From contig CM055897.1 in the NCBI GenBank assembly GCA_029582155.1, positions 8,326,507-8,390,506 on the forward strand: DNA of 64,000 nucleotides. Direction: 5' to 3'. The notes beneath the pieces are model-generated. The model was not told the origin of the DNA. It made no database searches and saw nothing but the letters and a program-made list of their open reading frames with translations. This DNA is from Panopea generosa. Taxonomy: Eukaryota > Mollusca > Bivalvia > Adapedonta > Hiatellidae. Of this stretch, positions 2,549 through 64,000 are shown in pieces (position 1 is the first letter of the stretch; each line of letters begins with the position of its first letter). The position numbers were made by a program, and so were the translations under genes.

Positions 2549-3309
2549 CTAAACAAAATAAAAATTAATTTATTAAACTACAGATTAGAATTTTCAATGT
2601 TATCAGTGTTTTTAAAATAGTTGTTATTAGACGCCTTTTGAACAACCATCATGTAAATAAGCTCAGCCTTAAGACAGGGTTGATAACTGTGTCAGCAAAT
2701 GGATGTTATAGCTGTCAATTATTCATTTAATGCAATTTTTAATAACCACAGATCAGATTACATTTATATTAAAATCCTTTCAACTAAACTAATTCGATCA
2801 ATTACTTGTGAGAACAAGTACAAGCAAACAACAGGACTGACATTATTATATATACATCAGAGAATATTTCTGTTGGATAATGACACTGTTTGATTGAAAC
2901 TACAGTCAAAATACTCTAAATCAAACATTTATACAGCTACATGATATAATCGGTCATAAAAAAAAACAGTAAAATATTGAAAAACATGCATTATACTACC
3001 AATGTAGAATGTCCTACCATTAAGTTACACTATGGTCCTCCGTGGCAGAGTGGTCTAAGGCACCATCTCAACATCAATTAACTCTCACTGCTGAGGTTGT
3101 AGGTTCAAGTCACACTTGGTCCAAAAGCTTTATGTGAGAAAGTTTGCTAGTTACGTGCTAAAGACATTGGTACTACTCAGATTCAGTCTGACGTGTTCCT
3201 ATGGCACTGAAACTGAATATGCCATATGTGATCTAAAATGTGTTGAAAATGACATTAAAACAACGAGACAATATAACCGCCAAGTTGCCACATACTGAAA
3301 TACACTTAC
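2549..3309 (-). other. MOCS3 intron 2
   Basis: Lies between donor GTAAGT (minus strand, starting at 3309) and the exon 3 acceptor. A plus-oriented tRNA-like SINE sits at 3035-3300 against the exon 2 donor. The rest is AT-rich without recognisable content. Confidence 0.7.
3035..3300 (+). repeat. tRNA-derived SINE (family 2)
   Basis: The head 'cctccgtggcagagtggtct' has an A-box-like form resembling a Leu/Ser-type tRNA, and 'ggttgtaggttcaagtc' resembles a B box. The body 'tttatgtgagaaagtttgc' matches the copy at 43905-44105 ('tttatgtgggaaagtttgcc'). Both copies end with an 'aaaatg..gttaaa..ataacc' type block. A mature tRNA cannot be folded from it, so it is a SINE and not a tRNA gene. Confidence 0.65.
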
Positions 3310-3454
3310 CTTTGACACCCAGTTCTGGTAAAATCAGCTGTCTGCTGTATCGAGATATTTCAGCATTTGTTAGTTTTTGTTTTAGCTGTGAGCATTCTGT
3401 CTTCTTGGAAACAACGTCTTCAGTTACACATTCTGGTAAGCAACTTAACAGTTT
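3310..3454 (-). CDS. MOCS3: MOCS3 exon 2
   Basis: This 145-nt exon has acceptor cttcag|AAA (exon starts at 3454) and donor G|GTAAGT (3309). It encodes a short linker and then EISRYSRQLILPELGVKG, the conserved start of the MOCS3/UBA4 adenylation domain (human: EILRYSRQLVLPELGVHG). It begins in phase 0 after exon 1 and ends in phase 1. Confidence 0.94.
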
Positions 3455-4721
3455 CTGAAGATGAAAAAGTTAAAATGTATTCAGAAGTTATTTTAGTCTA
3501 CTTTGATTTTTGTGCACACTTCTTAAATTGATTGTTTATTTTCAATCTTTTGATGCATTTTTTGCATTCTGGGGGAATTTTCAGATATAATTATTCATGA
3601 GAAAATATGGAAGCCTAGGTATCGCCACTGCCATTATCAAACTAACATTATATGGAAGTTAAATTTTAGGATATAATCACCTAGAACATTAAATTATATT
3701 GAAAGCTTCATTTTGGTCCAAAAAAAATCTTGATGGTAATTTTACTGAAATAATAATACGAAACTCTAGACTACACACTAAAGTGACAACAGTCATGCAT
3801 CCAAGTACTAACACCGTACTTAGTCTCTGGGCATATCCTGCCCAATTCCAAGGATAGATGGATTTGTACAGACGCAGGTTCAAAAGTTACTTCCGACACC
3901 ATTAAAATTACAGCGGTCACCCATTCAAGTACTTACTCATACTTCATTACTTAACTTCCAATAAAGCTGGTGCACTTAAGCCATATCATTATAAAACCTA
4001 GCTCAACAGCAAGGCTGTTGTACTTGTGACCTGTATATCTATATATACATTCAATACTGATTTAAAACTGCTGGAGAAATTCTATGAACATAAAAGCTGC
4101 TTCATAGGACATATGAACTCGCAACCGCCTGAACCCTAGCAGAGTGGTTGGACATCTAACATAAACTGGCCGCTAAATGAAATCATACCTAAATAAATAT
4201 ATACTGGTCATACCTATTACTGCGTGACTAAAACTTAGTCAACGGCATCAATAATAAACAGTAAGTGTGCTGAGTAATAAACAGTTGCCAGTACAAAATG
4301 TAAACAAATATAGACACTAACAGAAGATGGAGCTTTGTGCATGTCTGGGATATTGTTATCATACGGGCATTCGCGGTAATAGGTATATCCGGTATTAGGT
4401 AAACAAGAGATACTCTACCTCCCTCTTCTTCTATCTATAGCAGGGTGATTTTGACTGAGCATTTGGAATAAAGAACAAGAAAAAACACTTCAGTGAATTA
4501 TTTACGACTCTTCTTACACAGGGAGCTGACAGTCTTCAAATTCCTCTGAAAGATAGCATACTTTCACACCATATCCCCTGGAAATAATTAAAAATTAAAA
4601 CCCGGACATGACAACCCAGGGCTTCAAAACAGTGAACCTCGTGTGACAAACACTTGACCACTATATTTCAATGATTTCAGATTCAGAAAAGAACCTTATT
4701 TCTTTGTTTATCAAAACAAAC
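3455..4721 (-). other. MOCS3 intron 1
   Basis: Lies between donor GTTTGT (minus strand, 4721) and the exon 2 acceptor at 3455. It holds a MITE at 4200-4397. The short open frame on the minus strand at 3689-3883 has no recognisable domain. Confidence 0.7.
4200..4397. mobile_element. Short MITE with about 24-bp inverted ends
   Basis: The left end 'atactggtcatacctatta' and right end 'taataggtatatccggtat' are imperfect reverse complements that extend inward over 'ctgcg'/'cgcgg'. The flanks read TA on both sides, which suggests a TA target duplication as in Tc1/mariner-type elements. There is no coding capacity. A left-end copy without the right terminus lies at 24840-24975 and shares 'tactggtcataccta' and the internal 'gtgctgagtaataaac'-type block. 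Confidence 0.7.
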
Positions 4722-4802
4722 CTTCTTTAAATTATTTATTTCTTGATTTTTATCTTCAATTTCTTTCTTCAATTGCGCAAGTTCAGCAGCATGAGTTTCC
4801 AT
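4722..4802 (-). CDS. MOCS3: MOCS3 exon 1 (start codon, coiled coil)
   Basis: MOCS3 (yeast Uba4) is a cytosolic E1-like enzyme. It adenylates the C-termini of MOCS2A and URM1 and transfers sulfur to them, for molybdopterin synthesis and for tRNA wobble-uridine thiolation. Exon 1 encodes about 27 residues from the ATG at 4802, with a charged heptad-like helix (AELAQLKKEIEDKNQEINNL). Human MOCS3 has a similar N-terminal helix, 'LALQAEVAQREEELNSLKQ'. The donor AAG|GTTTGT is at 4721 and joins exon 2 in phase 0. An upstream in-frame ATG at 4844 would add 14 residues. I chose 4802 because it aligns with the human start. Exons 1-4 together give about 146 codons, roughly the first third of the protein. 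Confidence 0.88.
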
Positions 4803-4971
4803 CTTCGTCTGTTTCGCAGAACGCTCATTAACATTTTTTACCATGAAGCTTTTATCAACGCAGATCGACAAGAATAAATCTTCTTTTCTAAAGAGTATTT
4901 CTATTTACTTCATTCACGTGTTTCCTGTTTACAGCAGACGACTTGTAATTGCTGGTATTGTTTTTACCAAA
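4803..4971. promoter_or_regulatory. Putative bidirectional promoter, MOCS3 / cenH3
   Basis: The MOCS3 start (4802, minus) and the histone start (4972, plus) are head to head, 169 bp apart. No convincing TATA box is seen. The sequence is moderately AT-rich and contains 'cacgtg' at 4916-4921. An open frame on the plus strand runs from an ATG at 4843 into the histone frame. It would add 43 residues unlike any H3 tail, so I treat it as 5' untranslated sequence. The promoter role is inferred from spacing only. Confidence 0.5.
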
Positions 4972-5304
4972 ATGGCTCGTACAAAACAAATTCAAAAGCA
5001 TTCAGTGCCCCGACCTGGATGTGCGTATATTAGACATATTCTTGCAACAAAAAGAGCACAGCACAAAGTCAAAGTAGAAAAGGCTAGAAAACGGTATAAT
5101 AAAAAGGAAGTGACGGGTGGAATTAAAAAAGCCAAGCTATGGCTGCCAGGGACTAAAGCTTTAAGTGAAATAAGGAAATTCCAGCGATCGACGGACCTCA
5201 TTTTAAAAAAGATACCATTCCAGAGACTTATTAAGGAAATTGTTTGTGAAATATTCCAAGATAAAGGTTATAGATTTCAATCCGCTGCGCTGGGTGCAAT
5301 ACAG
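4972..5304 (+). CDS. CENPA: Divergent histone H3, likely CENP-A/cenH3, exon 1
   Basis: This exon encodes residues 1-111 of a 160-residue H3-family protein. Canonical H3 has 135 residues plus Met. The tail (1-58) keeps islands of canonical H3: MARTKQ at 1-6, LATK at 24-27 and TGGIKK at 48-53. The sequence between them is unrelated and longer. The alphaN helix follows PG (59-60) as KALSEIRKFQRS, then alpha1 with IPFQRLIKEI (81-90). Loop 1 (about 91-100, ending QDKGY) is two residues longer than in H3, the same kind of insertion that human CENP-A carries and a diagnostic of centromeric H3. Cys92 and Trp57 are not in canonical H3. The donor CAG|GTTTGT is in phase 0 at a position equal to H3 Gln93. 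CENP-A replaces H3 in centromeric nucleosomes and specifies kinetochore assembly. A divergent non-centromeric H3 variant is the alternative. Confidence 0.85.
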
Positions 5305-5795
5305 GTTTGTTTAAAAATGAGTTCTGCATCTAAATTAGTCGATTCTAAGTTTGTGGATAATCGGACAATTTAATCATTGAACGGTTATAGGTAATGCGGG
5401 TAATTACATTATTCTTATACTATTTATTGGGAATCTATACCTGCCTTTAATTACCTGTATCGAGGAGACAAAGTGGAAAATATCTTTACAACAGTTCTCA
5501 AATAAACACAAATGAACTGAACACTGAAGTAGTGTCCCGAGTACAATGGGACAATAGAAACACACGCAAACATTGTCACATATAAATGCCAATTTATCCA
5601 CACATATACGTTTCTTACCTCAGGAAGATTTTGAGCGTGATTTAGTGTAAGAACAGATTTGACAATCAATTTAAAATAAATCAGTTAAAACAATAGATCT
5701 ATAAATTCATTCTTTTATTACAATATTTTACTGTCTTAATCATTCAATAACATACTTTCTCACCAACTGTATTTTCATTGTGTTTGTTACTATAG
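5305..5795 (+). other. Intron of the H3-like gene
   Basis: This 491-bp intron has donor GTTTGT and acceptor 'tttgttactatag'. An intron inside the histone fold excludes a replication-dependent, intronless H3 gene. Confidence 0.88.
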
Positions 5796-9114: not shown

Positions 9115-9770
9115 AAGCTATATATAAAGGGAGATAATTAAATTCACAACAACGGAATTTACGATTTTTGGAATCTTTTCAGATTCTCATTCACAATTCA
9201 TGATATATATATATATATATGGAGATAATTATTTGTGAATAACCAAGACATAAATGTACATACCAGACTACGGCGAGTGCACCTAGCTACAATGCAAACC
9301 ATAGATACAATATCAAGGCACTGTCAAACCAATAAATTTGATGTCGACCATGATTTATATACTATGGAATTACATGCAACACATCTGGACAGGGTGGACA
9401 AATTTACAGTCATGAATTGATAGCTTTATATGAGTAGGATCCAGTTAAGGATTCATGACTACTCACATGCTATATAAAGGACAGATTTATAAACCCGTTG
9501 GATCATGAAGATACAGTGAATTCATATATATTTAATTTCATAAAGGGAGATAATTAAATTCACTACAACGGAATTTACGATTTTTGGGATCTTTTCAGAT
9601 TCTCATTCACAATGTATGATATATATGGAGATAATTATTTGTGAATAACCAAGACATAAATGTACAGACCAGACAACGGCCAGTGCGCCTAGCTACAATG
9701 CAAACCATAGATACAATATCAAGGCCTCTGCCAAACCAATAAATAAAAAAATATCATAACTTTATTGTTT
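9115..9770 (+). mobile_element. Dispersed modular repeat with internal microsatellite, about 1.5 copies
   Basis: Three modules occur in the order A-B-C-A-B. A begins 'agggagataattaaattcac', B begins 'ggagataattatttgtgaat', and C contains 'aaggattcatgactactcac'. The junction from A to B is a TA-rich microsatellite (9204-9222 and a shorter one near 9620). The same modules in the same order occur at 26497-27080, where the first B is preceded by (GCGT)n. A microsatellite fixed at one point of a conserved repeat resembles pearl/CvA-type non-autonomous Helentrons of bivalves. That class assignment is an inference. Confidence 0.6.
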
Positions 9771-26496: not shown

Positions 26497-27080
26497 ATGG
26501 AGAGATAATTATTTGTGAATAACCAAGACATAAATGTACGGACCAGACCACGGCAAGTGCGCCTAGCTATAATGCAAACCATAAAAATAATATCATGGCG
26601 TCTGCCAAACCAATAAATTTGGTACATGACTTATATACTAAGAAATTATATGCAACACATCTGGACACGCTGGACAAATTTACATAGCGTTATATGAATA
26701 GAATCCAATTAAGGATTCATGACTACTCACATTCTATATAAAGGACAGATTTGTAAACCTATTGGATCATATAGATACAGTGAATTAATAAATATTTAAT
26801 TTCATAAAGGGAGATAATTAAATTCACAACAACGTAATTTACAGTTTTTGGGATATTTTCAGATGCATTATATATATATATGGAGATAATTATTTGTGAA
26901 TAACCTAGACATAAATGTACAGACCAGACTACGGCGAGTGCGCCTACCTACAATGACAACCATAGATACAATATCATGGCCTCTGCCAAACCAATTTATT
27001 TGATGTCGACCATGACTTATATACTTTGAAATTATATGCAACACATCTGGATAGGCTGGACAAATTTACATACTCATATA
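26497..27080 (+). mobile_element. Dispersed modular repeat, second locus (B-C-A-B)
   Basis: Same modules and order as 9115-9770: B 'gagataattatttgtgaat', C 'aaggattcatgactactcac', A 'agggagataattaaattcac', then a TA microsatellite and B again. The two loci are about 17 kb apart in the same orientation. Confidence 0.75.
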
Positions 27081-40215: not shown

Positions 40216-41975
40216 AACATCCCATCAATTTATAATCATTCATTCAACCGGCCGAAGTTACACGACAAAACTAGTTTTGATTACAATGCACAGCAATTTC
40301 ACAGCCCCAACTACCATAAAAGCCGCAAGATGACATTGGCAGGCTTTATAGATTCAAATCAAAGAGCCCATTTTCAAAATGTCACAGTCACCATCATTGT
40401 CGTTGTTTTACTTTTGCATACCACTGGATTTTTGTTTATACATTGAATTTGCAACAACAAAAAAAATTAATACAAAAATGTTTTATAATTATGCGGTTTG
40501 AAAAAAGTTTATATCCAACTGCCGAAACATTGAAAACTCTAGGGCGGATCTTGTGGAGTCATGCACTCTAAATAGTAAACAAATATACATGGATCTGTGA
40601 TTATACACCTTCAGCAGGCTTACAAATAGCCGATTAACGGTGTCGTTTCAGCACACTGAAACCTAACTGACAAGTATAAGATACAAGATGTACAAGATGT
40701 GTCGGATGTATAAAAGACAGCTGTTATACAATCACCGATCCTAATTTGCGGGGGCAGAAACTTTTTGTGATTTAAACAATTATGCAATTAAACTTCTGCT
40801 CGGTTTGTTAATTTTTCCAAATTACATTGTACATAATTCTTCATAAACGACAAACGTAGTAAACTTAACCAAACAATAAACAAGGTGTGTAACTGATAAA
40901 TGCACTTTGGGCGTCTCCTTCGTCTGAATATGAAACTCTTTGTTACTGTTTAAATGTCACGCCTTGACGGGCTTAAACTATTTAACAGTACACTCACGTG
41001 CCGATCGAGAGTGGGAACTGGGGATCGGGCCCCATCTGAGGTTCCCGAAATTTTGCTAAATTACTACATTTTCAGTCAAAATTTAAAAAATACTAGTTAG
41101 ACTCGCCCACTGCTGAAATGACAGGATCCCAATTGACGAATATATCCGCCAACAAATTTGTATCTTAGGTAGAGAACATCCGTAACCAGAGATATAATAA
41201 TATGTTTTCTCGCGGCGATGTAATAAAAAACACCCGTATCTTGAATACATCTTTTGAGATGTCACGAATATTTATTTTTGTATACGATCATTTGATATGA
41301 CACATTTCTATAGGATAGCCGCACCCAAGCCCAGCTTTCGTTTGTAACTTTAAGCAATATAATACTATAAATCAACAACGGGTACATCAGTATTCGTTAA
41401 ACTCAATGTAAACTGGCAACATTCGTGTTCTGTAACTGACCTGACGTCAGAGTGGCTGTCGCTCCGCCCACGGGCTACGTGGCATTATCTTTCAAAGTAA
41501 ATACAATGTAGTGTTTACTTGGACAGCACATGTTTATCTAAGGAAAGGGCGGCGTATCAACGAATGTCGATCGCTGATTAGATTATCGGCGTGTTTGATT
41601 GACAGCTCGCGTCAAGTCAATTCTTCGGCTGTCACTAATTTTAAACGACGATATACATATAAAACCATAACAGGATTTTAAAGCGGATATATATTGATGA
41701 CTCATGGCTGTACATGTGTTTTTATATAATAAAAGTGCAAAGGATGATTCGTAATGAGCTTGAATTTTGATTTTTGTTGGCGTAAAATGTAACATAGATG
41801 ACGTAGGTATACCATGCACATTATTTATGGTATCCGTCTTTAATTATGTTATCAGTTTTTAGTTTTTCGTATGAACAAGTTGGTGCTGGGAATTCAAATT
41901 ACAATACAGCGTGTTGAATGTAACATAATATATGCCGCTGCTTTCTTTAACTGTTGATATTGGTTCCGATTTCAG
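40216..41975. other. Upstream of the membrane-protein exon; no exon identified
   Basis: 5' exons of the plus-strand gene, including a signal peptide, would be expected upstream. I could not identify any with confidence. A pyrimidine-rich tract leads to the acceptor 'gttccgatttcag' at 41975. Confidence 0.5.
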
Positions 41976-42596
41976 AGACTCTCTTGTGCCCTGCAGCTTA
42001 CGGATAAACGTTCGTGTTATGTTTCTCACCTCGTGTATTGCCGGGCCAACGCTCGATTGCGCCCCTTGTCCATCGTTTGGTATAGAAGACAATTATGACG
42101 TATTCATAACGGTAGCAACTAGTGTAAACTTAACAGATGATGAAATAGAGACAATAAGGTCAAACTGCGAAATAGAAATACCAACAACAACGACGACGAC
42201 CACTACAACAACAACTACAACCACTACCCCACCTCCAACAACGACAACAACGAAGCCAACGGTGCCGACGTCGACAACTGACAAATCAACAACAACAACA
42301 ACATTGGTGACAACAAATAAAACAAGCACTTCAACACAGACGACAGAAACAACAAAGAAGCAGACGACGCCAACTTCAGCGCCCTCGTCATCACAATCAA
42401 CGCAGACGACCACAACACTAGCAAACACTACGTTTTCCCCAAACACAACAGCACACATAAATGTAACAACAATCAACGTTACCTTGGTAACAGCAATTCC
42501 ACAGGCGTCAGAATGCGGCGGAATGTGTCAACTGATTCTAATTACGTCACTGACGGCGTTTCTTTTCCTGTTAATTCTCCTCACAGCATTAGTATT
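41976..42596 (+). CDS. Mucin-like type I membrane protein, exon A (stalk and TM)
   Basis: This exon of 621 nt lies between the acceptor 'ttcag' (41974-41975) and the donor TT|GTAAGT (42597). It encodes about 207 residues. A Cys-containing ectodomain piece comes first (Cys near 6, 20, 28, 31 and 64), with IEDNYDVFITVATSVNL. A Thr-rich stalk follows (about 70-180), coded mainly by ACA/ACG/ACC and holding several N-x-T sequons. Then come ECGGMC and a hydrophobic helix (LILITSLTAFLFLLILL) that ends the exon. The exon ends in phase 2, and exon B completes the Leu codon exactly. I do not recognise the family. The frame is also open upstream to an ATG at 41932, but a start there would lack a signal peptide, so an internal exon is more likely. 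Predicted: cell-surface glycoprotein with an O-glycosylated stalk. Confidence 0.75.
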
Positions 42597-49735: not shown

Positions 49736-50909
49736 TACTGTTAATGTATGCCAAAGCAAAGGTTAACCAAAGTGCTGTGAGCTCTGACGGTATGGGGTTG
49801 CATATGACTTGGTGAAGAAGTAGAGTAAAGACACAGTTTCATTGGAAATATAAACAGTATACAAAAGTGAATTGTATTTTTATGTGTTTATTGTTAGTAT
49901 CATGCAGAAAATACCAAAAATGTATCGAAAAGTGTCATACATATCTGCAAATAAAAAGGTTTTAATACCTTTAAAAAAAAACAATTTTCAATTTTTATCG
50001 ATATTTTCTTATAAATTGTGGAAATGGAAATATGGAAATACATAATGATTGAGATTAGTGCATTTAAACAACATTTGCCTTTTCCCTGTAGCCGGAATAT
50101 GGCCGGGTGAACCACAATTTGACCGGGTTTTAGTATCACACCCCAAATTGGGTCACGTGGCGCCTGCTATTATTCTTAGATTATGCCTGCATACAGAAAT
50201 GTACTTCAATTACATTTACAGACTTGTTAAACTTCTAATGGGTCATTTAGGTATAAAGTCTTTCAAAATCATTTAAACATTATTATGTGGTCTTTTTGCT
50301 AAAACTGAAGTTTTAATGCAGTTCAGTTAGATACAAGAATTGACGACTTAAACTACTTTTCACGCGCATTCATTTTTTGGATATCGTCAAAAATACATCA
50401 TTGGTACTATGGTCTTTTGGGCGAGCCCGAGACCAAATAAGAATAACACACAGACCAATTTAAGGAATAAGGGACCAGGTCCGACTCCCACTCAAACTGT
50501 GTCAATTGAGTGAAGTAAATTTCTGAACACGGTTTGATTTTTATTCGCTAAAATTAAATGCACAAAACAAGTCTAGAATTGTAAAACGTGTATTCCCGTT
50601 AAGAATGATTATCGAATCCAGGTTTCAAAACAGTTCCTCAGTTTATTTTTGTACTTTATGTGTTTAATTTTCGATACATAGAAGAGGCCTTATACTCCAG
50701 ATTTAAGTGTTCGTTTTATGAAATAAAACCTCGAGATACAGTGCAAATGGGAACAATGTGTTAGGGTGTGGAGGTTAAGCGAGACACGTGTGAAATTAGT
50801 TGCTATGGTTTATATTACATGCATTTACGATTGTATTGCAGCAGTTACCTGGTTATTTGAATTAATAACATAACTTAAATATTTGAATATATAAATACAA
50901 TCCGATCCC

Positions 50910-51110: not shown

Positions 51111-51374
51111 TGGCTCTTTAAAGCCATTTCAGTATATGTAGTACTGGTTATATCCAGCAAACGGCCTCGAGGTCGATTCACATAAGCCGTGAGTTACTTC
51201 TTAATCGAACTAAAATAAATTAGTACAAACTAATTGAACGACCGAACACACAAAAAAACACTCACGCACGGCTCACACACGGACAAATGACCCGCGCGCA
51301 CTTACACTTTAAAACAAAATGGAATGCAACTTAACACTTGTACTGAACATGAACATATCAGAGCTAACTGATTC

Positions 51375-51685
51375 TTTACTGGCAGGCACCTTCACTTGCT
51401 GATGCCTTTACTGACTGGTATCTTTACTGGCTGGTAACTTAAGTCGCTGGTGCTTTAACTGGCTGGCACATTTACTGACTGTTACCTTTACTGGTTGGTA
51501 CCTTTACTGGCGGATACCCTAGCTGGTCGGTACCTTTAGTCGCTGGTGCCATTACTGGCTAGCACCTTTACTGACTGTTACCTTTACTGGTTGGTACCTT
51601 TACTGGCGGGTACTTTTACTGGCTGGTACCTTTACTTGCTGGTACATTTACTGGCTGGTACCGTTACTGATTGGCCCCTTTAATA
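51375..51685 (+). repeat. 16-bp tandem array (copy 1)
   Basis: Irregular units of 'tttactggctggtacc'. The homologous array at 61010-61470 sits in the same place of the duplicated segment. Confidence 0.9.
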
Positions 51686-52127
51686 TATGACGTTCTTATT
51701 TTTCAACAGGTTACTGGAATACTAGACGCAAGCTCTTTATCATTTTGTGTGTTAAGGCTTGTCTTTGTGGTATGACTATCGGAGACATGTGTTATTTCTT
51801 CTACTTTCTTATTTGAATACATGTATATTGGGTGGGTCAGAATAGTTGAAATGTTACAACAAAGGATAGTATTTACATTTGATAAGACAATCCCGATCCA
51901 TCAACTAAAGTGGGTGCATTTTCTATTTAAATAGAGCGAAATCATTACACGTAATTTTAGATGACATTTTACTGATAATTGTCCATAAAAACAAGTCGAT
52001 CCTTTAACCAGACTATCCTTTTTTCAGAGAACCTTTTATTTCATCAATAAACTTTATCAACTCATGTTCCACGACATAGAGTATTATCAGTAATGTAGTC
52101 TATATATGATGCTATATTCTATTTAAG

Positions 52128-52230
52128 GATATTTCGCAGAGGGATGGACGAAAAGAAGAAGAGGCGAAGTCGTGATCGAAGTATAAGTAGCATACCTGAT
52201 ACGTCCTTCTACGACAGTATCGGACTACAG
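52128..52230 (+). CDS. Membrane protein, exon B (juxtamembrane tail)
   Basis: This 103-nt exon has acceptor 'ttaag' (52127) and donor CAG|GTGGGT (52231). Its first base completes the Leu codon split by exon A. It then encodes 34 residues: IFRRGMDEKKKRRSRDRS, a strongly basic stop-transfer segment right after the membrane helix, and IPDTSFYDSIGLQ. It ends in phase 0, as exon C requires. The second half is kept unchanged in exon B' at 62023-62131, which suggests selection on that motif. Confidence 0.8.
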
Positions 52231-52334: not shown

Positions 52335-53540
52335 TGATAAAAGCCCAAGCCAGGTTCGAATCCATGCTTGTAGGTGTAACAGTGACGGACCTAGGGTCTG
52401 TGTTTGGTTCGGACCCATGCTAGTAGGTGTAACAGCAACGGACCTAGGGTCGGGGTTTGGTTCGGACCCATGCTTGTAGGTGTAACAGCGACGGACCTTA
52501 GGTCGGGGTTTGGTTCGAACCCATGCTTGTAGATGTAACAGCGACTGACATGGTATCGGGGTTTGGTTCGAACCCATGCTGGTAGGTGTAACAGCGACGG
52601 ACCTAGGGTCGGGGTTTGGTTCGAACCCCCATGCTGGTAGGTGTCACCAACAGCGACGGACCTAGAGTCGGGGTTTTGTTCGAACCCATGCTTGTAGGTG
52701 TTACAGCGACGGACGTAGTGTCGGGGTTTGGTTCAAACCCATGCTGGTAGATGTAAAAGCGACGGACCTAGTGTCGGGGTTTGGTTCGAATCCATGCTGG
52801 AAATGTAACAACGACGGACCCAGGGTAGGGGTTTGTTTTGACGCTATGCTTGTAGATGTAACAGCGACGGACCTAGGGTCGGGGTTTGGTTCAAACCCGT
52901 GCTTGTTGATGTAACAGCGACGGACCTAGGATCGGGGTTTGGTTCGAACCCATGCTTGTAGATGTAACAGCGACGGACCTAAGGTGGGGTTTGGTTCGAA
53001 CCCATGTTTGTAGATATAACGGCAACGGACCTGTGGTTGGTGTTTGGTTCGAACCCATGCTTGTGGGTGTAACAGCGACGGACCTAGGGTCGGGTGTGGT
53101 TCGAATCCATGCTTGTAAATGTAACAGCGACGGTCCTAGGGTGGGGTTTGGTTCGAACCCATGCTTGTAGATATAACGGCAACGGACCTATGGTTGGTGG
53201 TTGGTTCAAACCCATGCTTGTTGGTGTAACAGCGACGGACTTAGGGTCGGGTTTGGTTCGAACCAATGCTTGTGGGTGTAAAAGCGACATACCTAGGGTC
53301 GATGTTTGGTTCAGACCCATGCTTGTAGGTGTAACAGCGACGGACCTAGGGTCGGGATTTGGTTCGAACTCATCCTGGTAGATGTAACAGCGACGGACCT
53401 ATGGTTGGTGTTTGGTTCGAACCCATGCTTGTAGGTGTAACAGCGACTGACCTAGGATCGGGGTTTGGCTTGAACCCATGCTGGTAGGTGTAACAGCGAC
53501 GGACCTAGGGTTAGCGACGGACCTAGGCTTGGTGTTTGGT
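52335..53540 (+). repeat. 54-bp minisatellite in the exon B-C intron
   Basis: About 22 units like 'ggggtttggttcgaaccca', 'tgcttgtaggtgtaacagcg', 'acggacctaggg'. Repeated open frames on both strands follow from the near-54-bp period. Several small indels break them, so I read it as non-coding. Confidence 0.95.
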
Positions 53541-53604: not shown

Positions 53605-54615
53605 GAGACAAAATACCGACACAAAGAAACCGTTCATGACTCTTCCAGCTACTCTTTCACATCCGCTGCATTCGACAACCCCGGCTACAGAAGGTCAGCT
53701 GAGTTCAGAACTAGTTACTATGGTGACTGGTACGACCCGGAAGCCGTGAACTACAAATATTCACAAGAAATGGCGAATCTTACACGTAAAAAATCACGCA
53801 GCCCGGAAAATCGGACTCTTCCTAGAACGCCTCTTGGCGAAAGACGCATGGCGGACATACCGAACGGTCAAACAAAACAGGTTTCACTCAGAGACTACGT
53901 CCCAAAAGTCATTCAAAGTGAAGAATTTAGATTTGATAAAACAATTCCAATTTATGCCGAGAATGGACACGTCTCAACACATGCAAAACACAAATCACCA
54001 GGCAGACGTCCGCGAACTCCAATAGAAAATCGAAATAATGTTAACGTTTATAAACCCGCACTACAACAAAACGTCCATCAGCACAGGCCATCATATAGAA
54101 GGTCAAGGTCATTTGACCCAGACCTTTCCACTGAGCGAAGGTCAAAATATAATTTTGATAACGACTTTTTAACTATTGATAACAGACACCGTAACTCAAA
54201 TAAACGATACATTAAAAACAACCAGAAAGGCAAAAATAATCCCCAACAAAGTAATAGAGATAAAAGCACAAAAGGAAAACTTCATGGACAAAATTTTCGT
54301 GACTTCAGCGATGATAGAATGTCGAATTATGGGGTAAGCCCAGACTATGATTTTGATACTGTTGATCAATACAGAGAGACCTTAAGAGAACCTAACGTAA
54401 TTAACAGTGCCATATTAAAACCTGGTTCACACATGTATAGTGGTAAAAATGGGAGCGATTATTACCATGATGGGCCTACGAGAAGAGGTCATGGAAGGTT
54501 ACATGGCGACATGAAGGACAAAATTCCAAACAGAAATGATAGAACAGACAGGTATCAGTCATACAGACCTTTACCTAGTGAAAGTGGCTACATCCTCCAT
54601 CAGACAAAATTATAA
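53605..54615 (+). CDS. Membrane protein, exon C (cytoplasmic tail, terminal exon)
   Basis: The acceptor 'acaattgtag' at 53604 opens a 336-codon frame in phase 0 with exon B, closed by TAA at 54613-54615. Near its start it has HDSSSYSFTSAAFDNPGY, where FDNPGY (53671-53688) is a canonical phi-x-N-P-x-Y endocytosis/PTB-binding motif, as in LDL receptor FDNPVY. DWYDPEAVNY follows. The remainder is a long, basic, Ser/Asn/Arg-rich, probably disordered tail with SRSPENRTLPRTP, KSPGRRPRTP and RRSRSFDP segments, which are proline-directed or basophilic kinase-type sites. It ends GYILHQTKL. An ATG at 53746 starts a 289-codon sub-frame, but splice phase and codon continuity support translation from 53605. 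The family is not recognised. With exons A and B it gives a surface receptor or adhesion molecule with a large signalling or adaptor-binding tail. Confidence 0.82.
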   Translation, partial: ETKYRHKETVHDSSSYSFTSAAFDNPGYRRSAEFRTSYYGDWYDPEAVNYKYSQEMANLTRKKSRSPENRTLPRTPLGERRMADIPNGQTKQVSLRDYVPKVIQSEEFRFDKTIPIYAENGHVSTHAKHKSPGRRPRTPIENRNNVNVYKPALQQNVHQHRPSYRRSRSFDPDLSTERRSKYNFDNDFLTIDNRHRNSNKRYIKNNQKGKNNPQQSNRDKSTKGKLHGQNFRDFSDDRMSNYGVSPDYDFDTVDQYRETLREPNVINSAILKPGSHMYSGKNGSDYYHDGPTRRGHGRLHGDMKDKIPNRNDRTDRYQSYRPLPSESGYILHQTKL

Positions 54616-54772
54616 ACTTACACATTTTCCTGTCGATATAAAACATGGTTGAAGGGACCAGCGATGAGCGGTTTATTGACAATCGTAACCACGCCCATCT
54701 TGTCATTATTATATATCTTCATACAAAATGTGAACAAAAAGACAAAACAGATTAAATATCTATATTTATGAT

Positions 54773-54778
54773 AATAAA
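54773..54778 (+). terminator. Candidate poly(A) signal AATAAA
   Basis: AATAAA about 160 bp after the exon C stop codon, in AT-rich sequence. It is the first such hexamer after the stop that I see. Confidence 0.5.
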
Positions 54779-55342
54779 CTATTCATTTCACCAACATATC
54801 CATCTTCATTCAGACGCCAAAAACAGTGTACACTGTCATGAAGTGTGAATGCCAAGTTTGAAATTAAGTAGGAAACACAAATCCAAACCCGGGGAAATAC
54901 ATGCATAAAAAGTATCTATCGAGTAAGGATTTAAAAAAAAACTATAATGTGTTGAGGTTCATGATGAATTTTGTTGTTGTTGTTGTTATTGTTGGTTTTG
55001 CCTTTTCATTAAAAAAACCGTAAAATGATTGTGGCGATAAACATGTCAATGACAACTAATAATAATAATAATAATAAAGTCTTGTTTAACCAGAGGACTT
55101 ATTTGAACAAGTAAATCATCCATGAGGCCTCAAACATATATACATTGTTTGCATTAATGTGCTAAATAACACATTCACATGAAAACAAAAACAAAGGTCC
55201 TCGAAATAAAGGAAATGTACATTGTATTACTTTTAGGAAACCTACACCAGTTTTTGTGCCGGATTTTCAATCAATCAAATCAATTTAACTGTACCTGTCA
55301 CAATTTAGGGGATGAACAGAACATCAAAGTATACTGTCTGTG

Positions 55343-55374
<32 letters not shown>

Positions 55375-56274
55375 AAATTACAAAATGTGACCATTCATAT
55401 CATGGATTATGAGGGTGGAGAAATTATTGATACAACAGTATAAGGTTAATTAATACAAATTTATTTTAGTACGATTGCGAGGAACGTTCAGAGTTTATAT
55501 GAACCGCTCCTATGTCAACTTCCTGGGTAGAACCAGTACTGAGTGTTGTTATTGAGAGGCATTGGGTCGAACTGCGGATCGAACCCGCAACCTCTGACGT
55601 GAACGGCCATCACTCTTTCAAGTAAAACTATCGACCGAGAAGACGATTTTGCACTTGTTGCTTTACTGTATCCGCCAGCAAGTATTTTTTCTCTAGCTTG
55701 TTTTATACAGGTAAAACGGAAACATTTTATACAATTCTCTTAATATTAACTGTGTTTATGAGCCTTGTTGTAGTCTTTATATCCCGAATCAGGTTTATAA
55801 ACCCCTAATGAAAAAGCACGAAATTCTATGCCTGTCCTACAATTCATAGCAATCAAGCGCTTGCTAAACTGTGACGACATCAAACATTTAGCTGAAACAA
55901 CTGACTAATCAACCTGCTCAGATGTTGCTTTCCGAACTTTGCTATTATTGGTCCTCGGACCTCGGCCTACGGCCATGGGCGAATATAACACTCCTTGGAC
56001 CAATAACTCAGCCAATATAAAATCATTTAATTAATAACATTATATTCTTTCAGTACTTATAAAAAGGAAATAAGTAAATAAAATTCAAGCCATATATAAA
56101 CTATTTGTATGACACCAACAGGAAGGAATATTCCCGCAGACTCACTTTCCAGGTGAATAAACAAACTAACATACAACTTAAAACATGCATTAGCGAATGA
56201 GTATATGCCGAATAAAACATAAAATGAACAAATATTTCAATATGTATATATCACATAAAATAAGTTTTAATTGG
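54779..56274. other. Downstream of exon C: simple repeats and SINE scraps
   Basis: Holds (AAT)n near 55060, (GTGC)n at 55340-55374 and a minus-strand tRNA-like scrap at 55555-55640 ('gaggttgcgggttcgatccg'). A fragment of the 22185-22500 repeat lies at 56111-56205. No gene. Confidence 0.6.
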
Positions 56275-56556
56275 TTGATTGATTGAGTATTTATCGTCAT
56301 TTTTATGCCATCGAGGGCTAACAGACGATCAGTTAACCTAACCACTGTTTCCTGGGATTAACTAGTACTCGAGCACACCCCATCCCCGCAAGTCACTGAT
56401 AACTTTCCCACTTCAATCAGCGGTGAGAGACGAATGATAATGAGACACAATGTCGTATATCAATCATCACGGAGACTGTTGCCGGGCGGGGATTCGAACT
56501 CAAGACCCCTGGATTGATAGTCAGACGTGTAACCGACTGAGCTAATCGGGCCCGGC
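56275..56556 (-). repeat. SINE (family 1), full length, minus strand
   Basis: On the minus strand it runs from the A box 'gattagctcagtcggttac' through 'gtctgactatcaatcc', the B box 'gagttcgaatccccgcccgg' and 'gacattgtgtctcattatc' to 'gatggcataaaaatgacg', ending in 'actcaatcaatcaacc'. All landmarks of the 46721 copy are present. Confidence 0.85.
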
Positions 56557-57679
56557 TTTAAGTTTTAAAGACTTACTAAACCAAGCTAAGAAGAGAGAAA
56601 TAGAATATTCCTCTATGACTTCTATAACCACATTGTACATAAGCATATATAAATATTATTTTTGCAATAACTGTTACATATGTATTTTATGCAGTTATAG
56701 GTCACACACAGTTGCGTCCCTTTTTTGTCACGGTAACTCATGTATTTATGAGCATTTGAGGACTTCTATTTTAAAAAATCTTCGGGTGCCATTACACTGT
56801 CTTTAAAAAAACAAGCTCGTCAACCTACCAGTAACTGTGCATTTTTATGTGCGGCCACATTCCTGCTATTAAAAAATACTGGAAAAAATACTAATATTCT
56901 ATGTGGACATTTCTTACCATGGAAATCCTTATTTCATATTGAGCAAAGAGCAAAGAACATAATGCAACTGTGAAGTGAGATTTTATAGGTAAGCAGGTTT
57001 CTTATAAGAAGGTTTCATATTTTTTTTGTTCTTGGTAGTTCTTCAGGAATCATATAAGACATAGCCAGAACAAAAATTTCATAATTTAGAATCTGACAAA
57101 AATCCCAAATATCGCCATCACAAAGTCAGATTAATTAAATTTTAAAATGTGAGTGCATCCATATGAAATTTGTACACTATCTAACCTGGTATGCCGCTCC
57201 ATTTATACCATTTTGTTTCAGAAGTTCCAAAATTAAAATCAACAATATCCTGCGCAAATAGTGTATGAAATTGTGGTTATCAATAGAAATAACCACATGT
57301 TTACCTGTATATCAAGGACAACATTCTGTGTTCAATATAAGTAAGGCTAAAGACTTGATAAGTAACATTTGGGCATTTTTCTGACCGATGTAAGAAATGA
57401 CAAAACAAACATTGGTAAATAGAGCTTATCTCTTAAACCAAAATAGTCGGACATGGAGATGACCAGACAGAATCACTTGACAGAACATAATTAGTTTGCT
57501 GCATTTGTGTTGTACTTATTCACAACTGGTGACCAGTTAATGTGTGTCAATGATCAATAAGTCATGGCGTCTCATACCATACTACCATAGATCAATGTAA
57601 AATGAGACTATCAGTAATCATGATTGAACTGCTCCATAAAATGTTAAGATGACAGTAATATAAGGCAATGGTGACCAGT
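56557..57679. other. Intergenic, nothing recognised
   Basis: AT-rich, with no supportable exon. Confidence 0.5.
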
Positions 57680-58160
57680 CTTTTTTTTCTTCGTTTAATT
57701 AGCTCTACTGGCCAAAGGCCAGAAGTGCTTATGCGATGGCGCGTTGTCCGTCGTCTGTCGTCTGTTAGCAGCACTTTCTCTGAAACCACTAGGTCAATTA
57801 AACTGAAACTTCACATGGATGTTTCTATTGCATTGGAAACTATACAGAAGATTTTTTTTCTCGATCTGAAATTCAAGATGGCCGCCGTTACTTCAAATAG
57901 TCCAAAACTTAAAAAATCTTCTTCTCATGAACGGCCTAACAGATTTTCAAAATGTTTAAGTAGTAATAATTTTGTTAGATTTGTTCAAATGGTGTCCCTA
58001 GGGTTAAAAATGACCCCGCCCCAATGTTTATATTGCATAGGAGAATTTCAAAAGTGCTATGGCCACTATGAGTCAGTAGAGCGTCCTCAGGCCCTCTTGG
58101 ACCTTTTGTTTTTTGGAATGTGGTTGAACGCCATTCTCAACACAATTCAGGTTATATAAG
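57680..58160 (+). repeat. Dispersed bivalve repeat ('ggcgcgttgtccgtcgtc')
   Basis: 'ctactggccaaaggccagaag', 'gatggcgcgttgtccgtcg', 'tctctgaaaccactaggtca', 'caagatggccgccgttac'. This phrase order recurs throughout bivalve genomes in my experience of the sequences. The 163-codon open frame over it is a repeat shadow. Confidence 0.6.
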
Positions 58161-58169
58161 GCACATCTA

Positions 58170-58290
58170 GTTGTATAGGTGGAGGAAGACCTCGGATTAT
58201 ATATGAGTAGAACCACCGTCCATCCCCAAGTAATTTGCAAACGTTCTCACATAAAGTTTGTTTTTGGAGTTAGCGGGACTCGAACAAACC
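58170..58290 (-). repeat. SINE (family 2) tail, minus strand
   Basis: 'ggtggaggaagacctcggat' is the reverse of the 'aggtcttcctccacc' tail at 1-40. 'gttctcacataaagtttg' matches the family body. Confidence 0.6.
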
Positions 58291-58369
58291 TAGCAGCGAA
58301 AGGTAAGTGATATTGCGACGGCACATTTGTGTATAAATGGTATACATTTGTATGAGTGAATCCATGAAT

Positions 58370-58690
58370 CAATGAATGAACGGGGTTTAACCGCGTACCA
58401 ACACATAAAAGGTCATTCGACGCCAACAGGAAGGAAGATGCCAGGTTTACTATACATGTAAAAAAACAACAACAAATTAACATACAAATACAAAAGAAAA
58501 CCATCAACAAACGAATGTACAGAATGGACCTGGAACCTTGATACCTGCAGAATTGCAGAGTTTCAGCAAATTATATCGTATGACTGAAATTGTCGCTTCT
58601 TACGACATGCATGTGCCACAGTGACCCTAACCTTGCCATCAGTCATATGACTCCCAGGAACCACACAGGTGTTGGTAAATCAGCCACAGT
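58370..58690 (+). repeat. Dispersed repeat, inverse copy of 22185-22500
   Basis: 'gtaccaacaca', 'ggtcattcgacgccaacagg', 'gaaccttgatacctgcag', 'tgcagagtttcagcaaat' and 'atgactcccaggaaccacac' are the reverse-complement landmarks in order. Confidence 0.75.
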
Positions 58691-59639
58691 AATGAACATG
58701 ACCTAGCTGGACGAGTTTAGTCATTTAAGATGGGTGTTGCAAATCACGTATATGCAGACTGATCAACTTCCCGCTTCAAACAGTGAGTATATTTGCAACT
58801 TTAATATATTGTGTTTTTGTAGCGTTTTGTTCTTTCCTCATGTACCGTACTTTTGATGGATATTGCTAAACCCCGTTATTGTATATGCAGATAGAACCAT
58901 GTGTGCTAGTATTCCCAAACATTGGATTTTTTCAATTGGAATGGATAAACCTCATTGATAATGGAACAGACTTTGCTTGTTGCATGGTACCCGGTTTTAG
59001 GTTCTGTGGCATATGTTTGCAAGCTACATACCGACTACGCATACTGTGTTATACTGAGTATTGGCATGCATTCAATATAAACCAGCAAACTACTAAGTTT
59101 TAAAAGAGATAGCAGTGAGAGAAGAAAATGTTTTATTTACTTTCCCGATACTTTTAATGATATATATGATCATATAAAATGATAATTTGTTTCATACGTT
59201 TGAGCCTGAAGGCGCACATTATATTTTGTGGACGTTTTCACAATTAAATTGATTTCTCATTGTGAGTTTATCATATCTCCATATTTGTGTCACCAGTAAT
59301 TAAAGTACATTTGAAACACTACACATTACGTTTCCATCCACTATATAGGAATCATATATTCGGAGAACGCTCGGTGTTTTTTCTTCAAAGAATTCATATT
59401 GTTTGGGTGTAATTAATTTATTATCTCTCCCATATTTTAAGAAAAAATATGTTTATCATATTATACTCATAATGACGGTAAGTTGTATTTCCCCGTCACG
59501 TTCAATATGAATAAGGCAGACGAGATACCTGTCTTCTTATGCAACTGAAATGGGGACGGCAGTGGCAAAGTCGGACCTTAGGGGTTTCGTGTGTTTTTAA
59601 CTTATTTATTTAACATCGATTGTGAAACAAGTTCTCACA
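58691..59639. other. Intergenic, nothing recognised
   Basis: The frame at 58879-59103 has no domain and no splice context. Confidence 0.5.
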
Positions 59640-59795
59640 ACTTTGACAAATCACTCTCGAAGTTTTCCTGTGTGTATCCGTTACTAAGCATTTACAAATA
59701 AAATGTTTTATTCAAAGACACCACATATAGCCGTGGGGGAGGCTCGAACCCACGACCCTCTGAACCACGCGCTTTCGGCCTTGTTACTGTAACAT
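59640..59795 (-). repeat. tRNA-derived SINE (family 4), decayed
   Basis: 'actaagcatttacaaataaa', 'caaagacaccacatatagcc', 'gtgggggaggctcgaacccac' and 'gaaccacgcgctttcgg' match 45945-46125 in order. Confidence 0.65.
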
Positions 59796-61009
59796 TCACA
59801 TGCGCTGATTTGTCATTAAACAAAACAATAACTAGTATACTGGTAATACACCGGATATAATCTGTTGTCAAAAAAAACATCAATAAGCCGCTAGAGATGA
59901 TAAAACACATATAAACAAAAGTCAGCGACATCCGCCCAAAGTGTCCTTCATGCGATATAAATACAGGTACCCTCCCTGTCCGATTACGTATTAATTGACA
60001 CGTCCATTGTTTTCATATGACTGTTGATTGCCATGATTATGACCGTAATGAAGGGTCACTCGTTGATGAACCCACAAAACATGTCAACGTCTCAGACTGA
60101 CCATCTCGAGAACAACTCGCTGACCAGTTGTCGATGGCCGTTAGCAAGGAATGAAAAAATAAAACTTTCGAACATAAACTTGGCGGTTTTCATGAGAGGG
60201 GTTATTTTCGAAACACACAAAGCATGCATACTGTCGCTTAAGTTGAATGTTAAAGGGAAATAGTTACATGACATTAGCTGTTATACTTCCTCAGAGATAT
60301 TCCGTGCAGATATAACGTCAGTGTTATTACACGTTAACGTTGGAAAACTTGATAAATTATTTAGCAGAGTTTAATTTCGTATCGAATGCTGGATAATTGC
60401 GATATTTCCGCGTGTTTTAAATCTATGTACTGCTTGGATTGACGATACAATCTGTTCTGGACACGCGTTGATTTTTATTCAATAAAATTGAATATGTAAA
60501 ACAAATGGAGAATGTATAAAAGCGTAGTTCAACAATGATCGCCGAATTGCTGCCAGGTTTTAACAAAGTTAATCAGTTTAATTGTGTAGTTTATGGATTT
60601 ACTTTTCGATATACGGGAAAAGCTTAACTGGTCTGGGAATTTTTCAATATTTAATCGTGTGTTTTATGAAATAAAACCCTGAGATATAGATCAAATGGTG
60701 TGGGAGGAAATTGTAAGGTGAGTTATACATGCTTTTTGTATACTATTATATTATATAATTAGTCACGGTGACATGGCTCTAAGAAATACCTCAATACTCC
60801 AACACAGTCGTTCACGTTATAGGTCGCGGGTTCGATAAAGAGTTTGACCCGAACGCTTGTCAAAAACAACACTCAGAAAAACGTCTCGAGAGTGATTCAT
60901 ATAAGCACATAATCACGTGCGTCCTCACACATGCCATTACGTGTATAGATTTTAAAATAAAACGGAAACACTTGTACTGACCATGAACACATAGAATCCC
61001 AACTGATTC

Positions 61010-61470
61010 GTTATTGACTGGTACCTTTACTAACTGGTACCTAAATTGACTGGTCCTTTTCTGGCTGGTACCTTAATTAACTGGTCCTTCACTGATTGAT
61101 ACAATTATTGACTGATGCCCTTACTGGCTGGTACCTTTATTGGCTGATACCTTTATTGGCTGGTACCTTTACTGACTGGTATCTTTACTGCCTGGTACCT
61201 TTATTGGCTGATACTTTTACTGGCTGGTACCTTTATTGGTTGGTATATTTACTGGCTGGTACCTTTATTGGCTGGTTCCTTTACTGCCTTGTACCTTAAT
61301 TGGCTGGTACCTTTACTGACTGGTATCTTTAAATATTTACTGCATAGTTCCGTTACTGGTACCTTTATTGGCTGGTACCTTTACTGCCTGGTACATTTAT
61401 TGGCTGGTACCTTTATTGACGGGTACCTTTACTAACTGGTACTTTTACCGGGAGGTATCTTTATTATATA
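61010..61470 (+). repeat. 16-bp tandem array (copy 2)
   Basis: Units 'tttattggctggtacc', longer than the counterpart at 51375-51685. Confidence 0.92.
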
Positions 61471-61578
61471 AGACGTGCTCTGTTTTCCACACATTTCTGC
61501 TATACGAAATAAATGCGTTTTGCTTGTGTTAAGGCTTATATGGAATATATGGGTATAATATCAGAGACATCCAACTAC

Positions 61579-61580
<2 letters not shown>

Positions 61581-61642
<62 letters not shown>
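61581..61642 (+). repeat. (GT)n microsatellite
   Basis: 31 uninterrupted GT units. Confidence 0.98.
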
Positions 61643-61644
<2 letters not shown>

Positions 61645-62022
61645 CCGGATACTGCTGGATTTCGGAAACTTCGAAAGTATTAGCCGTAATGCACACTGGG
61701 AGATGCTTAGAGTACAAAACGTCTGATCCTATATGTGTTTACGTGCAGAATGGCTATGAACAAAAAAACAAGAACATCACCCTGACGATATTGTTGATTT
61801 GATTACACTTGCCAGGCAGTTCCGACCATGAATTAGCAATTTGACCGTTTTATTTTATTCATTATTGCCACCCAGTAGAATAGTCTACTGCTATAACCAG
61901 ACTTAACCTTTTAAGTGAGCCTTTTGTCATTGAACATTTATAATTTCAGTATTTGAGAGTTTGTATTTACACTTAACAGACACATTCATGTAGTCTATAA
62001 AACCTACTTTACACTATTTCAG

Positions 62023-62131
62023 GATATTTCGCAAGGGGAGAGAGGGACGGAAGAAAGAGCGAGGTCAAAGTAGTAACCGAAGTATGGGCAACATACCAGA
62101 TACGTCATTCTACGATAGCATTGGGCTGCAG
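62023..62131 (+). CDS. Exon B' (duplicated juxtamembrane exon)
   Basis: The acceptor 'cactatttcag' (62022) and donor CAG|GTAGGT (62132) bound 109 nt in the same phases as exon B. It encodes 36 residues: IFRKGREGRKKERGQSSNRS, basic like exon B, then MGNIPDTSFYDSIGLQ. The final IPDTSFYDSIGLQ is identical to exon B, while the basic part is diverged. It could be an alternative juxtamembrane exon of the same gene, the start of a partial tandem copy whose exon C lies to the right, or a relic. The intact frame and both splice sites favour function. Confidence 0.55.
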
Positions 62132-64000
62132 GTAGGTGGTGTCTCCTGTAGTTACCGAGGTATAGGCAACATATCAGATACGTCATTCTACGATAGCATT
62201 GGGCTGCAGGTAGGTGGTGTTTCCTGTAGTAAACGAGGTATGGGCAACATACCAGATACGTCATTCTACGATAACACTGGGCTGCAGGTAGGTGGCATCT
62301 CTTGTAGTAACAGAGGTATGGGCAACATACCAGATACGCTATTCTACGATAGCAATGGGCTGCAGGTAGGTGGTGTCTCCTGTAGTGACCGAAGTATGGG
62401 CAATATACCAGATACGTCATTCTACGATAGCATTGGGCTGCAGGTAGGTGGCGTCTCCTGTAGTAACCGAAGTATGGGCAACATACCAGATACGTCATTC
62501 TACGATAGCATTGGGCTGCAGGTAGGTGGTGTCTCCTGTAGTAACCGAGGTATAGGCAACATACCAGATACGTCATTCTACAATGGCATTGGGCTGCAGG
62601 TAGGTGGTGTCTCCTGTAGTAACCGAGGTATGGGCAACATACCAGATACGTCATTCTACGATAGCATTGGGCTGCAGGTAGGTGGCGTCTCCTGTAGTAA
62701 CCGAGGTATGGGCAACATACCAGATACGTCATTCTACGATAGCATTGGGCTGCAGGTAGGTGGCATCTCTTGTAGTAACAGAGGTATGGGCAACATATCA
62801 GATACGTCTTTCTACGATAGCATTGGGCTGCAGGTAGGTGGCATCTCTTGTAGTAACAGAGGTATGGGCAACATACAAGATACGTCATCTACGATAGCAT
62901 TGGGCTGCAGGTAGGTGGTGTCTCTTGTAGTAACAGAGGTATGGGCAACATATCAGATACGTCATTCTACGAAAGCATTGGGCTGCAGGTTGGTGGTGTC
63001 TCCTGTAGTATCTGAAGTATGGGCAACATACCAGATACGTCATTCTACAATAGCATTGGGCTGCAGGTAGGTGGCATCTCTTGTAGTAACAGAGGTATGG
63101 GCAACAAACCAGATAAGTCATTCTGCGATAGCATTGGGCTGCAGGTAGGTGGTGTCTCCTGTAGTAACCGAGGTATGGGCAACACACCAGATACGTCATT
63201 CTACGATAGCATTGGGCTGCAGGTAGGTGGCATCTCTTGTAGTAACAGAGGTATGGGCAACATATCAGATACGTCATTCTACGATAGCATTGGGCTGCAG
63301 GTAGGTGGCATCTCCTGTAGTAATCGAAGTATGGGCAACATACCAGATACGCCAGTCTACGATAGCATTGGGCTGCAGGTAGGTGGCATCTCTTGTAGTA
63401 ACAGAGGTATGGGCAACATACCAGATAAGTCATTCTGCGATAGCATTGGGCTGCAGGTAAGTGGTGTCTCCTGTAGTGACCGAAGTATGGGCAACATACA
63501 AGATACGTCATTCTACGATAGCATTGGGCTGCAGGTAGGTGGTGTCTCCTGTAGTAACCGAAGTATTGGCAACATATCAGATACGTCATTCTACGATAGC
63601 ATTGGGCTGCAGGTAGGTGGTGTCTCTTGTAATAACCGAGGTATTGGCAACATACCAGATACGTCATTCTACGATAGCATTGGGTTGCAGGTAGGTGGCA
63701 TCTCTTGTAGTAACAGAGGTATGGGCAACATATCAGATACGTCATTCTACTATAGCATTGGGCTGCAGGTAGGTGGCATCTCTTGTAGTAACAGAGGTAT
63801 GGGCAACATACCAGATAAGTCATTCTGCGATAGCATTGGGCTGCAGGTAGGTGGTGTCTCCTGTAGTAACCGAAGTATTGGCAACATATCAGATACGTCA
63901 TTCTACGATAGCATTGTGCTGCAGGTAGGTGGTGTCTCCTGTAGTAACCGAGGTATGGGCAACATACCAGATACGTCATTCTACGATAGCATTGGGCTGC
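62054..64000 (+). repeat. 78-bp array made from exon B' and its splice donor
   Basis: About 25 units run to the right edge. The period is exactly 78 bp throughout, apart from one missing base near 62888. Each unit holds 'gtatgggcaacataccagat', 'acgtcattctacgatagcat', 'tgggctgcag|gtaggtgg' and 'tctcctgtagtaaccga': the 3' half of exon B', its donor, the first intron bases, and a tract ending in TAG that looks like an acceptor. In the exon B' frame every unit reads as 26 codons. The frame is open from 62023 to the missing base, about ten units beyond the first donor. The minus strand is also open (289 and 364 codons), a by-product of the period. One unit has the stronger donor GTAAGT at 63457. 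The array continues beyond the window. Confidence 0.97.

Follow-up and report, generated by a model that had tools for sequence, protein, structure and literature searches.

Minisatellites located at exon–intron boundaries alter splicing or add amino-acid repeats in duplicated human genes (De Grassi and Ciccarelli 2009, PMC2812944). In that article the repeats (ITRs) have units of minisatellite length (9–228 bp in coding cases), are found at an exon–intron boundary of a duplicated gene and are often in frame; the locus described here is alike in all these features. Exon 8 of NPIP (morpheus), as presented there, carries up to 39 translated units of 57/69 bp, with the unit number varying among the transcripts of one locus; the authors favour structural polymorphism over splicing as the source of these differences (PMC2812944). 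Alternative 5′ splice-site exons, or tandem donors, are alike in another respect: donors compete on one exon (PMC2423196).

The window analyzed here is the whole stretch of 64,000 nucleotides from the bivalve Panopea generosa. Tandem Repeats Finder (reporting threshold, score 50) gave 62070–64000 as one tandem array of period 78, with 24.8 copies, 91% matches, 0% indels and a score of 3183. The array starts at an exon, B′ (62023–62131, + strand; 109 nt, phase 2 in and 0 out, donor CAG|gtaggt), and, when cut into units at its donors, occupies 62132–64000 (+ strand) as at least 24 units after B′, a lower bound, as the array reaches the window end, where the last unit has 76 of its 78 bases. Each unit combines the first 16 nt of the intron following B′ with the final 62 nt of B′. 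Donor spacing is 78 in 22 cases out of 23 and 77 in one, the 77-bp unit with a one-base deletion (62834–62910, + strand) marking the end of the in-phase ladder. The first-pass annotation had described about 24 copies of the 3′ part of B′ at a 26-codon period, a coding exon end and donor amplified in register and a single base lost across the array; all this was borne out. We consider it probable that the array is an exon-edge minisatellite, expanded without selection on the reading frame in a partial gene duplicate, and that B′ belongs to a short form of the protein. In that annotation, capture of an exon end by a minisatellite had been named as the alternative to a ladder of functional donors; it fits better than the ladder.

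GT is present in all 24 visible donors and GTAGGT in 22; the two deviating donors read GTTGGT (62988) and GTAAGT (63456), thus the statement that every copy has CAG|GTAGGT stands for the GT only. Computed U1 pairing was −11.3 kcal/mol, equal to that of exon B′, in 22 of the 24 visible donors (B′ included), and −7.5 and −11.6 kcal/mol in the two deviating ones. Repeated strong donors in one phase are present: the frame is open and the phase is the same for donors 1–10 (through 62833), with phase lost at donor 11 (62910). Use of the first donor would leave the protein unchanged, and donors 2–10 would each keep phase, adding 1–9 whole stop-free 26-codon units, as had been claimed up to the deletion. 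The claim of an open frame is accurate through donor 10; 3′ of the deletion, the unit 62989–63066 has in its frame a TGA (CGA to TGA; 63013–63015, + strand) that had gone unmentioned. Reading the array on the antisense strand also gives open frames (289 and 371 aa), so that openness of the array is weak evidence for coding. The sequence 62124–62151 at the B′ donor can form a hairpin (CTGCAGG pairing with CCTGTAG, −9.9 kcal/mol in 28 nt), and the unit donors could, by sequence, form the same one.

Two other features of the array were set aside. An LRRNT (Pfam) match in the array ORF, at 29.2 bits versus the curated 25.8 (E = 6.9e-7), was judged a repeat artefact, with no single stretch passing alone. 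A 2161-aa frame continuing from the array beyond the window was not taken as coding evidence: the adjoining sequence reads N and translation counts N as open, which makes the frame an artefact. The Rfam search over the sequence gave 0 matches at the gathering threshold, and with the array ORF as query no repeat-bearing homologue was found at E ≤ 0.001 among 7990 candidates scored.

Considering the sequence upstream, we saw that exon B′ has a paralog, exon B (52128–52230, + strand; IFRRGMDEKKKRRSRDRSISSIPDTSFYDSIGLQ, donor CAG|gtgggt, phase 2 in and 0 out), which is without the 78-bp array and is homologous to P0001, P0003 and P0004. Three pairs of blocks align: 50521–50750 with 60455–60698, 51303–51373 with 60946–61008, and 51966–52230 with 61852–62131. 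Also in the duplicated segment is a 16-bp minisatellite 5′ of B′ (61018–61463), resembling 51374–51669 5′ of B. By this alignment, one partial tandem duplication in a bivalve gene has copied the promoter, the start exon, intron 1 and exon B. The duplication must be old, since the copies are only about 67–75% identical, to be compared with the at least 90% identity used by De Grassi and Ciccarelli as the criterion of recent duplication.

Seven synonymous and no nonsynonymous changes separate B from B′ within the 13-codon motif IPDTSFYDSIGLQ (Fisher p = 2e-6); across the exon as a whole, the proportions of changed sites are 0.66 synonymous and 0.18 nonsynonymous. Judging from this 7:0 ratio, B′ is a genuine exon on which purifying selection acted during much of the period after duplication. 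It is the 7:0 ratio, together with the homologues, that backs B′ as an exon and the unit as one straddling an exon–intron boundary. The same contrast indicates that the method detects constraint where constraint is present.

The upstream copy belongs to a gene model on the + strand. Exon A (41929–42596, + strand; 5′ end approximate, with an AG acceptor candidate preceding 41976) encodes a Thr-rich mucin-like stalk and a transmembrane helix and ends with the phase 2 donor ATT|gtaagt; exon B follows through a TT+G codon; exon C (53605–54615, + strand), the terminal coding exon, encodes 336 aa with FDNPGY and C-terminal QTKL before a TAA stop, with AATAAA at 54773. The model joins A, B and C at boundaries that agree with the homologues: P0001 carries the transmembrane helix and, behind it, the same basic stretch and motif, while five others (P0002, P0005–P0008) start their conserved tail directly after a Q, the residue expected from translating an intron that ends in CAG. 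All six aligned sequences share, without change, the motif FDNPxY (x = A or G) and the C-terminal tetrapeptide QTKL. We take FDNPxY of exon C to resemble the FxNPxY internalisation signal, QTKL to resemble a class I PDZ ligand, and YDSI/YDSV presumably to fit a YxxPhi signal.

A profile of six sequences matched nine proteins; the named homologues, both from bivalves, are P0003 (Mercenaria mercenaria LOC123539942 isoform X2) and P0004 (Ruditapes philippinarum ‘homeobox protein 2-like isoform X2’). They share with the window the short start, the basic stretch, (M/I)PD..(L/F)YDS(V/I), FDNPxY, PRTPIE and C-terminal QTKL; unlike the window they have one motif copy and no array, at 36 and 35% identity, respectively, to window exons B–C. 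A single motif copy was found in all three homologues covering the motif (P0001, P0003 and P0004), a count that leaves out P0002 and P0005–P0008, which appear to start with intron sequence read through into exon C, as well as P0009, which begins inside the tail.

An array is present just after B in the upstream copy as well, though with another unit: a 53-bp minisatellite in the B–C intron (52353–53511). Its unit contains GGTTCGAACCC, which we take to resemble a tRNA B box, and ARAGORN called a tRNA-Ser inside the array (52978–53067); this array is possibly a tRNA-derived element turned minisatellite. Tandem repeats make up about 12.5 of the 64 kb (19.5%), in 19 merged stretches with periods of 2–172 bp, smaller rows being left out; with such a fraction, arrays are common in the window.

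The conserved promoter and 5′ leader block of the downstream copy (60455–60698, + strand), about 69% identical to 50521–50750 and with TATAAAAG at 60515, ends at the ATG of a start exon (60695–60717, + strand; ATG...AG|gtgagt, MVWEEIVR) situated 1.3 kb 5′ of B′ and without a transmembrane helix. Spliced to B′ in a model, it reads MVWEEIVR-IFRKGREG, to be compared with MVWNEITR-LFRKRRES of the Mercenaria isoform X2 and MWHELKR-LFRKGRQS of Ruditapes; these short starts also appear, by eye, to be without a transmembrane helix. A scan of the whole window on both strands for ATG-(0–2 codons)-Trp followed by a phase-2 GT[AG]AG donor gave a single match, the one at 60695; 300 shuffles of the 7.4-kb C–B′ segment had 0.06 matches on average, and in none of the 300 did a match have 6/8 identity to Mercenaria. 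The corresponding exon of the upstream copy, in a degenerate block (50521–50780, + strand) aligned with 60455–60717, is broken: its ATG is at 50747, the sixth codon is TAG and the donor is not kept. The downstream copy keeps a TATA box; none was found by the same pattern in the matching stretch of the upstream copy.

As its own start exon at 60695 is intact and the upstream counterpart is broken, B′ is most simply read as exon 2 of a short membrane-less form whose start is at 60695. A–B–C of the upstream copy would retain the membrane-bound form, as suggested by the intact and the broken start exons and by the homologues. Splicing of A to B′ is phase-compatible but would skip B and C. The description of B′ as a juxtamembrane exon of a membrane protein is weakened accordingly: A and C have single confident matches, both upstream of B′, and B′ has the helix-less start exon 1.3 kb away. 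In a scan of 54616–62000, between C and B′, for a further exon with a transmembrane helix we saw two weak candidates, with donors at 55792 and 61390, neither of them like A; the one at 61390 is the translated 16-bp minisatellite.

Duplication-degeneration-complementation is a concept of subfunctionalised duplicates, each copy losing an element that the other keeps. The locus may be a case of such complementary loss: the upstream copy has lost its start exon and TATA box, and the downstream copy is without A, though A was perhaps never in the duplicated segment. The alternative starts appear, from the state of the two start exons, to be divided between the tandem copies.

If the downstream copy were dead, with B′ and its start exon left without a downstream exon C, the array would be a plain non-genic minisatellite. 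A search of the genome (1.47 Gb in 39 contigs, readable sequence only) speaks for this: exon C, searched at E ≤ 10, had its own match in the window (E = 8e-227) and a chance-level match (E = 9.07). Nor did the readable downstream flank (about 22.5 kb) yield a second exon C, queries with exon C and P0001–P0005 giving a best tblastn E ≥ 0.26. The first part of exon A had one genome match at E ≤ 1. Single confident matches of A and C may mean that the duplication was partial, that exons were lost, or that a second C is in unreadable sequence, and an unreadable stretch beyond the window could hold one. The intact start exon, donor and TATA box, as well as the absence of nonsynonymous change between the B and B′ motifs, speak against a dead copy; we regard this explanation as rather unlikely, though it deserves more weight than the ladder and decoy explanations considered below.

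We hold it improbable that the donors form a functional ladder on the short form, with donors 1–10 setting the count of 26-residue units, most of them with YDSI. The strong donors and the in-phase, stop-free units described above are in its favour; the deletion and the stop present on this haplotype, and the single motif of the homologues, are against it. Substitutions argue against it as well. Relative to the majority sequence, the 24 units have 37 distinct substitutions, 9 synonymous, 27 nonsynonymous and 1 stop, against a neutral expectation (computed with the observed transition bias and the majority sequence as reference) of 9.9, 26.0 and 1.04. Omega across units was 1.15 (95% interval 0.52–2.77); in units 1–10 alone, 6 of the 21 changes were synonymous and 15 nonsynonymous. 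In the motif half of the units 2 of 19 changes were synonymous (5.0 expected) and in the linker half 7 of 18 (4.9 expected). The 2:17 synonymous to nonsynonymous ratio of the motif half differs from the 7:0 of the B/B′ motif (p = 5e-5). With the 77-bp unit entered with a gap sign, YDSI is kept in 15 of 24 units and PDTSFYDSIGL in 7. Purifying selection on unit-encoded residues was not seen among these 37 changes, and the idea that the ladder sets the motif number is not supported by this comparison of synonymous with nonsynonymous change between units. In the donor 9-mer there were 2 distinct changes versus 4.3 expected; this is not unusual, with 14 of 78 nine-column windows as low. Weak selection on units (omega of about 0.5–1), or on the first units only, may exist.

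On one point the functional reading did gain. The 78-bp array has 1 indel per 95 mismatches. For ten further arrays of the window taken together the figure is 72 per 743 (Fisher p = 0.004); these were hand-chosen from the repeat table, with the 172-bp array and small rows left out, and the 51- and 52-bp arrays adjoin each other and have related units. The five comparison arrays of period ≥47 bp have 30 per 344 (p = 0.010). Such a deficit is what frame constraint would give. We did not take the scarcity of indels to prove frame constraint, because the 80-bp array, whose period is not divisible by three, is free of indels as well (0 per 48 mismatches). The 32-bp, the 47-bp and one 16-bp array also have zero indels, and the sole indel of the 78-bp array breaks the frame.

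Distal donors could, instead, act as decoys or poison sites, yielding frame-shifted or truncated messages and thereby reducing or regulating how much of the short form is made, so that array length would tune its expression. Exons ended in the short-form model at the later donors tried (12, 13, 14, 20 and 24) each stop after 304 residues, and the hairpin at the B′ donor is more stable than that at exon B (−9.9 versus −3.8 kcal/mol) and might limit U1 access. Against this, three units (62600–62833) folded no better than shuffles (z −0.82), and we give the proposal a low probability. We think still less of a genomically variable ladder in which a signalling or adaptor isoform lacking the membrane segment would carry 1 to about 10 motif units, according to the choice that individuals and cells make from at least 10 in-phase donors, allele length would add variation and the upstream membrane form would be kept free after the starts had been divided between the copies.

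Under the preferred reading of an exon-edge minisatellite, an older partial tandem duplication copied promoter, start exon, first intron and exon B, as the alignment shows, and a 78-bp segment at the end of B′ would have been duplicated once in the downstream copy. In-register exchange would then have expanded the segment to at least 24 units; the anatomy of the units is observed and the exchange is what we infer. In pairwise comparison, units 7 and 24, as well as 17 and 22, are identical, and the pairs 13/17, 13/22, 9/15, 15/21 and 19/23, among others, are at 0.987; near-identical units at several spacings are expected of block exchange. The 26-codon period and open frame would be coincidental (prior about 0.2) and would go back to the founder unit; we found that a random unit spanning the exon edge is in frame and open with probability of about 0.22. 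Splicing would then occur mostly at the first donor or at a few nearby, with distal donors giving longer and then out-of-frame products, that is, noise or mild loss. Since the unit mutations look non-coding, we think it most likely that the array is a by-product rather than a device for tuning.

Elsewhere in the window, an ORF at 4795–5370 (+ strand) encodes a divergent histone H3 (Pfam Histone, E = 1.4e-13; best solved match H3.Y); in the alignment its loop 1 is two residues longer than that of H3.Y, and its N-terminal tail is diverged. We take it to be a candidate centromeric H3 (CENP-A-like), with the C-terminal part seeming to continue in another exon. An ORF at 3233–3469 (− strand) containing RYSRQLILPELGVKGK looks to us like the ThiF/MOCS3 family, although Pfam gave no match for it at E ≤ 0.01; there may be a minus-strand gene near 3–5 kb. 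The segments 9124–9744 and 26502–27070 belong to an interspersed repeat family with pieces 87–92% identical, probably a mobile element.

An exon end with its donor, copied at least 24 times in register, is a natural substrate for the choice made by the spliceosome among many near-identical donors. It also points to a pitfall: a period divisible by three, an open frame and repeated donors may all be inherited from the founder and say little on coding. The duplication, in which the alternative start exon is whole on one side and broken on the other, offers a candidate case, open to testing, of isoforms split between copies.

The literature surveyed, in its accessible parts, has boundary minisatellites (PMC2812944) and no description of a donor ladder of such size, which is not proof of its absence from print. 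The ITRs of De Grassi and Ciccarelli are transcript-supported, have four units on average and come from human segmental-duplication paralogs; here the units number at least 24, each with an authentic donor, the duplication is old and the array is described from sequence. The NPIP repeats described there are inside coding exons (PMC2812944), whereas here the array is beyond the first donor. The tandem-donor cases studied in PMC2423196 have one proximal and one distal donor, proven by transcripts; here at least 24 candidate donors, recognized from sequence, follow each other at 78-nt steps. What sets the present array apart from known boundary minisatellites is the number of authentic-donor units and the neighbouring start exon, which only one of the two copies has kept intact.
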